Assembly (NCBI GenBank): GCA_016867335.1 | Contig: VGJU01000015.1 | Coordinates: forward strand, 1 to 33,498 | Length of the DNA stretch: 33,498 bases | Reading direction: 5' to 3' | From: Candidatus Zixiibacteriota bacterium | GTDB lineage: Bacteria; JAAXHH01 | In this document: positions 20,801-24,551 of the stretch, one piece after another | Layout: every line of letters begins with the position of its first letter | Position numbering within the stretch: the stretch's first letter is position 1 | The notes under the pieces: model-generated | Told to the model about the DNA's origin: nothing | Database searches by the model: none | Seen by the model: the letters and a program-made list of their open reading frames with translations, nothing else | Program-made: the position numbers and the translations under genes

Positions 20801-23299
20801 TTAGTGTGGTATGCCAAGGTCGTGCATCCGCCGATGGATCGCCGCAACGGCCTCCCGGTAGGGTTTTTCGAGAAACGCTAAATGATCTTCCTCGCCATGA
20901 TGATGCGTGACGTTGCCATGCGGATGTTGAGCGCTCCGGTGTCGGATATACGATAACCCGCCTTCTACCAGACTCAGCATGTAGTGCGCATTTTCGAGGT
21001 CGAACAGCCGATAGTCTTTCCCACAGGCTATGTATATCGGCGAGGTATGGGCCATGATGCCGCGTCGCCAGCCATCGTGGTGCGGTATGGCAGCGTAGTT
21101 GGGGCCTGCGCACCGCGCCGCCAGCCATGTGTCGCCGTCGATTCGAAGCGATGTCTTGAGCATCAGACGCCGCGTCCCTTGGCGTTCTTCCGTAGACGCC
21201 GCTACCTTTCCCTTGTTTACGATTTCCAGCGAATGCACCGGAAGCGTCGATTCCACCTGTGCTTCGATCTCCACCGTGCCGCCGTTTCCGGTTAGATGCA
21301 CCGTGCTTCCGATGGGATGACCGTTTACCGAAAAACGGATCAGCGGACCGCCGCTGAGAAAAGTATGCCCGCTGCGTAACCCTTTAAGCCAGCTTTCATA
21401 GGTAAACGGCTCGTCCGGCGGGATATATACATAGGTTCGGTACAGCCCCACCGGCACATCGCTCGTCATTTTGTCGGTTCCGCCGGTCAACGGCAACCGG
21501 TAGCCGCAATTCAGATACCGATAGTATTCCAGGTGATTGTACTCGCTGTGAATCAGCATTTCCACCGCATCGGCGCGCCCCGTGGCGATAAGCGCCGCCG
21601 GTTCGCAGTTCGGGTTCGGGATATGAGGAATCACCACGGTTCCGCCCTGACGGTGACACTCGTCCGCCCAATAACTCAGCGTGGTTTCGAGATTGCCACC
21701 CGGTTCGCCTTCCGACGGTCCGTCGGAGCACCAAGGCATGACGGGCGTTTTAAGCCCCAAGAGCGTCAGATGGCCCAGCATATGCTGTCGGTTTTCCTGC
21801 GTGGCGTAGACGATGGTCTCGCCACCCGTCGAAACGCTGGGCCGGCCCGTAAACTCTTCCGTGTTGGTAAACAGACTTCCCCATTGCGAAAGCAACAGGT
21901 TGACAACATTCAACCCTTCGCCCTCGGCTTCGAGGTGGGCACCTTGGGTAGACAGAAAATGGACATGCGTATCCCCGCTGAAATACCGCTGTGCGCTCAT
22001 GTCGATCCAGCGGTTTAGCCGGAGTGTCAGTTCGCGCTGACCGGGCTGTATATACAAGACGGTGCGTAGCGGTTCGTATTCAAAACCACGCGCCACATCC
22101 ACGACGACGTCTCCCCGTGGCAGCCAGCCTTGGCATTTGCCGTCTATATAGGCATACGTGGCCTGGCCTAACCGCACATCACCCCCGATGTCGATGTGCC
22201 AAGTACCCATGTCGGAGTTGACATGGGCATGGTGTCCGTGCGGGGCGTAGGCAATGCCATGCGCGGACCGAAAATGGATACGACAGGGAAGCGGTTTTCC
22301 CGTGGCTCCGTCCAGTACGGTCGTATGCACCCAGTTTCGTCCGGAATCGACGATTTCGAAACGCACTTTCGGAGTATCTACCACCCGGCTTTTATCCAGT
22401 TCACCCCAGTTGACCGTGCCGAGGGTTTCGCCTGACTGTGTTACCGAGACCGTGGCAGACGGTGTTCCGGCGATGCCGACGCAGGCGGGACTGCTGGAAG
22501 TGGCCGACGGTTCTCCCCATCCTTTATGTGTATCGTTGACAAACGCTTCGGTCGACGCGGAAGGTAGCGGATACGGATAGGTAGCAAAACCTCGGTCTAC
22601 CTCTACGGCAAGATCGAAGGGTTTTTGCGCCGCATCCGTCGGATGAAGATCGATGCGCACGTCCTGTACCGCCCAGCGGCAAAAGGGATCTTCGGCAAGA
22701 TGCCCCAGCGTGATGCCCGCGATGAGAAAAGGTTGATCTTCCGGTGTCACTTCGATGCGGCCCAACTCCACATCGGGTTCCGGGTTTTCCCATGCCCATA
22801 GATAATAGGCGCCGGGCCATGCCTGACTGGCCTCGGTCTGACGGCGCCCCGCCTCCTGCCATGCGCCTCTGTGGCGTTCGATCAAGGTATCGGGCTGGTC
22901 GGGCACGCAGAGAAAGGGCAACTGTCCCCACATTGGCGGGAAATATCCTATTTCGAATCGTTCGCGGATGGGGATTGGGTATACGTGACCGTTCGACAGA
23001 TAAAAACGGTATATGGCTATCGTTTTGCCGACCGTTCCGCCCGAAGGGATTTTCGACTCGACCACCGTATGGGCGAACAGCACGCGTTTGGCGCGGGAAG
23101 CGATGGGTATGGAGAGGGGGTGTCCGATAGAAGCGGTGTCGAAACCTATGAAAAGGGGCGAGCCGGACACGCCGCTGCCTATCTGAAAGGGGATACCGCG
23201 AAAGGTCTGGCGGCCTGCCGGGGGATTGACGACTGCCGTGAAAAACGCGGCGTCGGTCTGACACATGGAAGAGATATCCAACGGTTCGTAATCCGGCAT
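20801..23299 (-). CDS. CehA/McbA-family metallohydrolase, large form
   Basis: This is an 832-residue protein. The catalytic PHP-like region starts with H445-x-H447 (SGDTHVHFLS) and continues through a His-rich LGHLTLLGL, VVIPHIPNPN and LTGGTDKM. This is the metal-binding layout of CehA/McbA hydrolases (carbaryl hydrolase relatives and many unassigned enzymes). The N-terminal 400 residues are beta-rich and include an NPCBM-like start (DISSMCQTDAAFF, RGIPFQIG). A C-terminal beta part and a His-rich tail (HPHGNVTHHHGEEDH) follow. No signal peptide is seen. It lies 24 bases after the second STAS gene, so it is likely in the same operon. The substrate is unknown; ester or phosphodiester cleavage is possible. 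Confidence 0.82.
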   Translation of the reverse strand: MPDYEPLDISSMCQTDAAFFTAVVNPPAGRQTFRGIPFQIGSGVSGSPLFIGFDTASIGHPLSIPIASRAKRVLFAHTVVESKIPSGGTVGKTIAIYRFYLSNGHVYPIPIRERFEIGYFPPMWGQLPFLCVPDQPDTLIERHRGAWQEAGRRQTEASQAWPGAYYLWAWENPEPDVELGRIEVTPEDQPFLIAGITLGHLAEDPFCRWAVQDVRIDLHPTDAAQKPFDLAVEVDRGFATYPYPLPSASTEAFVNDTHKGWGEPSATSSSPACVGIAGTPSATVSVTQSGETLGTVNWGELDKSRVVDTPKVRFEIVDSGRNWVHTTVLDGATGKPLPCRIHFRSAHGIAYAPHGHHAHVNSDMGTWHIDIGGDVRLGQATYAYIDGKCQGWLPRGDVVVDVARGFEYEPLRTVLYIQPGQRELTLRLNRWIDMSAQRYFSGDTHVHFLSTQGAHLEAEGEGLNVVNLLLSQWGSLFTNTEEFTGRPSVSTGGETIVYATQENRQHMLGHLTLLGLKTPVMPWCSDGPSEGEPGGNLETTLSYWADECHRQGGTVVIPHIPNPNCEPAALIATGRADAVEMLIHSEYNHLEYYRYLNCGYRLPLTGGTDKMTSDVPVGLYRTYVYIPPDEPFTYESWLKGLRSGHTFLSGGPLIRFSVNGHPIGSTVHLTGNGGTVEIEAQVESTLPVHSLEIVNKGKVAASTEERQGTRRLMLKTSLRIDGDTWLAARCAGPNYAAIPHHDGWRRGIMAHTSPIYIACGKDYRLFDLENAHYMLSLVEGGLSYIRHRSAQHPHGNVTHHHGEEDHLAFLEKPYREAVAAIHRRMHDLGIPH

Positions 23300-23323
23300 G
23301 GTCGTTCCCCTGTGCGATGAAGA

Positions 23324-23665
23324 CTATGTTTTCAAGAAGTTGACCGCCAAATCGAGCGTAGCAAAATTTTTCAACAAGGAGTGTAGTTTGGTTACTTGAA
23401 GCAAATGTTGGATACGTGGAGTCGTATGGATAAGCACCAGTTGTCCGCCTGCCTTCCGAACGGACTTGAAGGCGGCGATCAACGCTCCAAGTCCGGAACT
23501 GTTGAGCAAGGGGACGTCCGCGAGATCGAGGATGATATGATGACGGCCGTTTTCCGAGAGCCGGGTAACGGCGGTATACAGTTTGGCGGTGTCGGTCTCC
23601 CCCCATAATCGTCCGCTTAGCCGCAACACGGCCACATCGCCCGTTAAGGTATCCTCGATTTCCAT
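23324..23665 (-). CDS. STAS-domain anti-anti-sigma factor-like protein 2
   Basis: This is a 113-residue single STAS domain with the phospho-site segment N55-S56-S57-G58-L-G and flanking strands (AVLRLSGRLWGETD, HHIILDLADVPLLN). It is a paralogue of the protein at 20289, but the residue before the serines is Asn instead of Asp. GGGAGAAG lies directly upstream of the ATG. It is followed after 24 bases by the CehA-like gene and preceded by the selenoprotein gene on the same strand (149-base gap). Its partner kinase or phosphatase is not in the window. Confidence 0.9.
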   Translation of the reverse strand: MEIEDTLTGDVAVLRLSGRLWGETDTAKLYTAVTRLSENGRHHIILDLADVPLLNSSGLGALIAAFKSVRKAGGQLVLIHTTPRIQHLLQVTKLHSLLKNFATLDLAVNFLKT

Positions 23666-23814: not shown

Positions 23815-24045
23815 TCACCGTGCCGTCAGGAGCTTTTTGATCTCCTGATAGGTAGGAAATCGGTCCTCGGCCAGTTTCGAGAAGATCGGGTGTTCGTCAA
23901 CTGAAACTTCGAAACAGCCACCGTCGGATGGAATCAGTTCGAGTTTTTCGATATCGTGTTTGAAGTACTCCAGCAGACGAACCGCCAGACCGGCGGCATT
24001 TTCTTCATAGCCTCAGTCTGCGCAGTACCTTATCCGTACGATCAC
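23815..24045 (-). CDS. SelW/Rdx-family selenoprotein with in-frame TGA (Sec)
   Basis: This 76-residue protein is read through TGA codon 11 (24013-24015). It begins MIVRIRYCAD, then Sec, then GYEENAAGLAVRLLEYF, and continues with GGCFEVSVDEHPIFSKL, EDRFPTYQEI and KKLLTAR to a TGA stop (23815-23817). This is the complete Rdx (SelT/SelW/SelH) pattern: CxxC or CxxU after the first strand, an amphipathic helix, then GG-x-FEV-x-VD, IFSK and RFP. C8-x-x-U11 is the redox site, with Sec replacing the second Cys. The GTG start has GGAGG 6 bases upstream and a TTGCCT-17-TACTAT promoter. A SECIS-like hairpin follows the TGA. Family members are thioredoxin-like redox proteins of uncertain client. selA, selB, selC and selD are not in the window. 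A plain nonsense mutation is the alternative. Confidence 0.8.
23981..24015 (-). promoter_or_regulatory. Candidate bacterial SECIS element
   Basis: Starting 16 bases after the UGA, GCCGCC pairs with GGCGGU (five GC pairs and one G-U) around a five-base loop GGUCU. The loop begins 22 bases after the UGA, within the usual window for bacterial SECIS elements. The loop sequence is the one I recall for the E. coli fdhF SECIS, where the loop G and U are needed for SelB binding. It lies inside the coding sequence, as bacterial SECIS elements do. Confidence 0.7.
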
Positions 24046-24087
24046 TCCCGTCCTCCGGTCCAGGGTTCCTTTGAAACTCCCTTTGAC

Positions 24088-24161: not shown

Positions 24162-24551
24162 ATGAAAAAAATCCTGATCACGGACGATGATCCGAACATG
24201 CTGGAAATCATCTCCATGGCATTTGAGACCACCGGCGGCTCGTATGAAATCCTGACGGCTTCGGACGGTCGCAAGGCTATGGAAATGGTCAAATCCCACC
24301 ATCCGGATCTGTTGATTCTGGACCTTATGATGCCCAATGGACACGGCTATTGGGTTTGTCGGGAAATCCGCTCCGACAAGTCTTTTGACACTATGCCGAT
24401 ACTTGTTCTTTCGGCAAAATACTATCCCAAAGACCGGGAAGAAGTGCTAGCCATGGGGGCCAATGCATTTATGACCAAACCCTTTGCGCTTCGGCAAATC
24501 GTAGAGCGATCCCGGACTCTTATGAACGAACCTTCGGATATATCCGGATAA
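24162..24551 (+). CDS. Single-domain response regulator (CheY-like receiver)
   Basis: This 129-residue receiver domain has no output domain. Acidic pocket D8-D9-D10 (ITDDDPN), phospho-acceptor D54 (LLILDLMMP), S84 (LVLSAK) and K106 (FMTKPF) are all present, so it should be phosphorylated by a histidine kinase encoded elsewhere. It would act by protein contact. ATG 24162 was chosen because the TTG codons further upstream lie in the promoter -10 region. No Shine-Dalgarno site is seen. The MBL-fold gene begins 4 bases after its stop, so the two are co-transcribed and probably functionally linked. The two STAS proteins upstream make a local signalling cluster. Confidence 0.92.
   Translation: MKKILITDDDPNMLEIISMAFETTGGSYEILTASDGRKAMEMVKSHHPDLLILDLMMPNGHGYWVCREIRSDKSFDTMPILVLSAKYYPKDREEVLAMGANAFMTKPFALRQIVERSRTLMNEPSDISG

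Follow-up and report, generated by a model that had tools for sequence, protein, structure and literature searches.

A predicted bacterial SECIS hairpin follows the conserved in-frame UGA of a SelW-like gene in Candidatus Zixiibacteriota

A short gene on the minus strand of a Candidatus Zixiibacteriota contig carries an in-frame UGA near its start, with a compact GC-rich hairpin soon after it. The locus raises the question of whether the UGA is read as selenocysteine, and whether the hairpin is the bacterial SECIS (bSECIS) element serving that reading or a by-product of the peptide encoded there. We analyzed the window, by which we mean the whole stretch of 33,498 nucleotides, together with homologous genes from other genomes. 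The following features of the window are considered here.

23815..24045, minus strand: predicted selW-like (Rdx family) selenoprotein gene, from its read-through translation and matches to Pfam Rdx and NCBIfam CXXU_selWTH
24013..24015, minus strand: in-frame UGA, probably read as selenocysteine, from the UGA at the equivalent codon in homologues
23981..23997, minus strand: predicted bacterial SECIS hairpin, from its fold, covariation, excess over synonymous resampling, absence from Cys homologues and a covariance model
24051..24056, minus strand: Shine-Dalgarno-like GGAGGA, separated by 5 bases from the GTG downstream of it, from the sequence and its conservation in the sister genus

Plain open reading frame calling splits the selW-like gene at the UGA. 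Read through that codon, the gene extends from a GTG start at 24045 to a UGA stop at 23817-23815 and encodes 76 residues, beginning MIVRIRYCADUGYEENAAGLAV; the selenocysteine would be residue 11, in a CADU motif (CXXU; C-A-D-UGA at codons 8-11) near the N terminus. The Pfam Rdx model PF10262 matched through the UGA (E 7.7e-21, 74.5 bits against a cut-off of 22.6), and NCBIfam TIGR02174 (CXXU_selWTH) was passed with 62.8 bits at a cut-off of 34.2. The SelTWH_Campy equivalog NF041051 scored 75.9 bits, below its cut-off of 88, which places the protein as a relative outside that narrower group. Rdx is the SelW/SelT/SelH-like family, whose members carry a CXXU or CXXC redox motif, and the solved relatives found by sequence were bacterial Rdx proteins, for example 2fa8 and 2obk. 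The GTG start was kept in 12 of 12 sister-genus copies, with a GGAGG(A)-type site at nearly the same place. A longer N terminus was considered, as no stop interrupts the frame between the GTG and an upstream TAA near 24162, and was rejected because the sister copies have stops in that region and share the conserved GGAGG-GTG start.

In order to place the UGA in its family, we sampled 16 species genomes, an identical set for the order and for the phylum, which is itself sparsely sampled. Thirteen of the 16 had one Rdx gene each, and every one of the 13 had exactly one in-frame TGA within the match, at the codon corresponding to that in the window. The same was true of all 24 distant loci, from Planctomycetota and Chloroflexi genomes. 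Two more Sec-type Rdx copies were found on plasmids of Thermomicrobium and Cytobacillus. On the Thermomicrobium roseum plasmid NC_011961 (L084:101-337), the deposited Rdx gene leaves out an in-frame TGA, in a CTSU context, that lies ahead of its annotated start; its true start is probably upstream, and the gene probably encodes a selenoprotein. The similar TGA copy on the Cytobacillus spongiae plasmid (L086) is unannotated.

On the minus strand, the 5' arm of the hairpin, GCCGCC (23997-23992), has its first base at +16 from the UGA; the loop, GGUCU (23991-23987), starts at +22, a UGA-to-loop spacing of 21 nt, and is followed by the 3' arm, GGCGGU (23986-23981). The stem thus has six pairs, five of them G-C or C-G and one a closing G-U. 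The positions, stem, loop and spacing (+16 and +22) given in the initial annotation all agree with this sequence. Folding of the isolated hairpin gave -10.2 to -10.7 kcal/mol with a z of about -2.8, and the 47-nt context from just before the UGA folded unexceptionally compared with shuffled sequence (z -0.79).

It had also been argued that the position of the hairpin within constrained coding sequence made chance less likely. The opposite is the case: coding constraint raises the likelihood of such a hairpin arising by chance, since GC-rich codons for the peptide AAGLAV yield a nearly self-complementary sequence. When the same peptide was recoded synonymously with the window's codon usage, 17% of recodings put a 6-bp stem precisely here, and 29% produced some stem of 6 or more base pairs whose loop begins with G. 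Across the window, a hairpin of at least 6 bp follows 9.5% of all TGA triplets. A SECIS-like hairpin in one sequence is therefore weak evidence, and from this sequence by itself the element could hardly be said to exceed chance; what decides is the comparison of Sec with Cys homologues.

We therefore examined the corresponding place in homologues. Sec homologues of the phylum, of Planctomycetota and of Chloroflexi have the stem and the second loop G in the same position, so that the conservation on which the initial annotation had made its proposal depend was found, compensatory changes included. At least five of the six pairs were present in 32 of 33 homologues, where synonymous resampling led us to expect about 17, and all six pairs at the identical distance in 24 of 33, where about 4 were expected; this excess does not amount to a formal probability, because the homologues are related and the expectation was computed with the window's codon usage or with uniform usage. 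The stem is missing from this position in a single Sec homologue, L029. The covariance comparison that had been proposed as a check was made on an alignment of 29 distinct sequences, in which 93.7% of cells pair and three pairs have changed on both sides, in 18 cells. The covariation score was 0.384; shuffled alignments gave 0.248, none of 500 scoring as high as the real one, and slid partners gave at most 0.202. Some of the both-sided changes are non-synonymous: GCCGTC/GACGGC in Planctomycetota corresponds to GCCATC/GATGGC in Chloroflexi, which alters amino acids on both sides, so codon bias does not explain it. RNAalifold arrived unprompted at the same helix, lacking the two outermost pairs and gaining one further pair on the inner side, which closes the loop. 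Two loop bases, the second (G) and the last (U), were invariant in the alignment. The third loop base varies within this one family: the loop is GGUCU in the window, as in Planctomycetota, and GGGUU or GGGCU in all 12 sister-genus copies (L043-L055).

Of the six pairs, between 1 and 4 are present at the corresponding place in eight Cys-type Rdx genes from plasmids; these genes are more distant relatives, which makes them a helpful but imperfect control. A covariance model trained on hairpins from Planctomycetota and Chloroflexi alone found the hairpin as its best match in the window (E 0.0039) and had no match at the corresponding place in the Cys genes. Over the whole genome, the same model placed the hairpin second of 18 matches (E 0.5), not separated from background, because a model of 21 nt lacks the length to distinguish it; among the ten best of these matches, the hairpin alone has an in-frame UGA ahead of it in a long open frame. 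No Rfam family matched at the gathering threshold, and at a lax threshold only chance-level archaeal snoRNA matches were returned, so this library neither supports nor opposes the element.

The genome was then searched for the Sec-decoding machinery. A selB gene was found with 381 bits against a cut-off of 242; it includes the SelB winged-helix domains and runs off the left end of its contig, C27. A selD gene scored 289 bits against a cut-off of 125. It is the second part of a fusion whose first part is a pyridine nucleotide-disulfide oxidoreductase domain (L060:292-2418, contig C197), and the whole fusion protein matches the NCBIfam model "oxidoreductase/SelD-related fusion", below that model's cut-off. 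For selA, the left edge of contig C185 carries only a C-terminal fragment, the last 60-odd residues, which resembles the full-length selA-type genes of relatives. Most relatives (G001-G014) have two selA-type genes, one scoring about 490 bits without the first 60-70 model positions and the other full-length and weaker, at about 155-250 bits. No tRNA-Sec (selC) exceeded the threshold in this genome's assembly; the best candidates are tRNA-Ser, -Leu, -Trp or -Tyr genes according to ARAGORN. In relatives, selB is followed at a distance of about 40 bases by a tRNA-Sec gene, whose anticodon is TCA; in G006, for example, selB ends at 1849290 and the tRNA-Sec starts at 1849331. Here that spot lies beyond the contig end, so the missing tRNA-Sec, which would have been lost in an assembly gap, and likewise the partial selA, would be most simply explained by contig ends.

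These data can be weighed against two other readings of the locus. If the UGA were a genuine stop codon, or resulted from an error of sequencing or assembly, in a decayed Rdx gene with a chance hairpin behind it, then an assembly with neither a complete selA nor a tRNA-Sec is what might be expected; however, the UGA recurs in all 13 phylum copies and in 24 distant ones, which in practice refutes this reading, the downstream frame is intact and conserved, and selB and selD are present. We give this reading next to no probability. Alternatively, the gene may encode a selenoprotein that uses another or a longer structure, the hairpin being a by-product of the conserved peptide and its GC-rich codons. 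The frequency with which recoded AAGLAV forms a 6-bp stem and the stemless Sec homologue L029 both fit that account. Against it stand the excess over synonymous expectation (which, as noted, is not a formal probability), the compensatory changes, some of them non-synonymous, and the absence of the stem from Cys homologues, and we regard it as very improbable. Our observations establish the gene family, the conserved UGA, the stem, which is conserved and covaries, together with the loop G, and the genomic selB and selD. Judged from the homologous sequences, the hairpin clearly exceeds chance, and it is very probably the bSECIS for decoding UGA as selenocysteine in this SelW-like gene; that interpretation holds on the comparative evidence, despite the failure of the chance argument.

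The genes around selW were also compared. Downstream, the minus-strand interval 20801-23665 of the window holds a STAS gene and a gene for an 832-aa CehA/McbA-type metallohydrolase, the nearer of which is the following feature.

23324..23665, minus strand: STAS-domain protein of the anti-sigma antagonist type, encoded by the gene that follows selW downstream, from Pfam STAS (E 3.6e-17)

The order selW-STAS-CehA/McbA-type is kept in 12 sister genomes; the divergent upstream response-regulator and MBL-fold genes were absent from the 1.5-kb flanks examined in those genomes. The conserved order could mean that the SelW-like selenoprotein works with the anti-sigma-antagonist regulator in phylum-specific redox signaling, a suggestion based on synteny that we consider unlikely.

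In Escherichia coli, SelB-GTP with Sec-tRNA binds the mRNA SECIS beside the UGA and delivers selenocysteine (PMC1794560, PMC1088965). By the same scheme, the bSECIS would form in the selW-like mRNA 15 nt after the in-frame UGA, the GGUCU loop would be bound by the C-terminal winged-helix domains of SelB, the ribosome would receive Sec-tRNA(Sec) from SelB, and selenocysteine would be inserted at the UGA, within the CADU redox motif of a thioredoxin-like protein of 76 residues. A redox role may be predicted for this Rdx-family product.

The published bSECIS model specifies a loop of 3-9 nt, an upper stem of 4-16 bp, a spacing of 16-37 nt, an energy of -7.5 kcal/mol or lower, and a G in the first two loop positions followed by G or U (PMC13188914). 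With its 6 bp, 5-nt loop, GG, 21-nt spacing and -10.2 to -10.7 kcal/mol, the hairpin fits throughout, and nothing in it lies outside the model. The likeness to the fdhF loop, which the initial annotation had proposed, was confirmed in E. coli K-12: the fdhF SECIS has the identical GGUCU apical loop at a nearly equal place after the UGA, starting at +19 (18 bases after the UGA) rather than at +22. The window's hairpin differs in having no bulged U, its stem being what we term perfect GC, and the exact fdhF loop is not conserved, as the sister-genus loops indicate. SelW-like proteins were the most abundant family in the Sargasso Sea selenoproteome (PMC1088965), their Cys forms are rare in Sec-using bacteria (PMC1794560), and SelW genes are known to escape annotation, as in epsilonproteobacteria (PMC4607533). 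The hairpin is thus very probably a bSECIS of typical form within an already known selenoprotein family, an expected and ordinary part of a well-known system, and the locus adds a well-supported selenoprotein gene for a sparsely sampled phylum. Like the bacterial SelW-like selenoproteins already described (PMC1088965, PMC4607533), it is a small Rdx gene with a CXXU motif and a predicted bSECIS right after the UGA, of a kind often left unannotated; it differs from them in its sparsely sampled host phylum, its GTG start and its conserved STAS neighbor.
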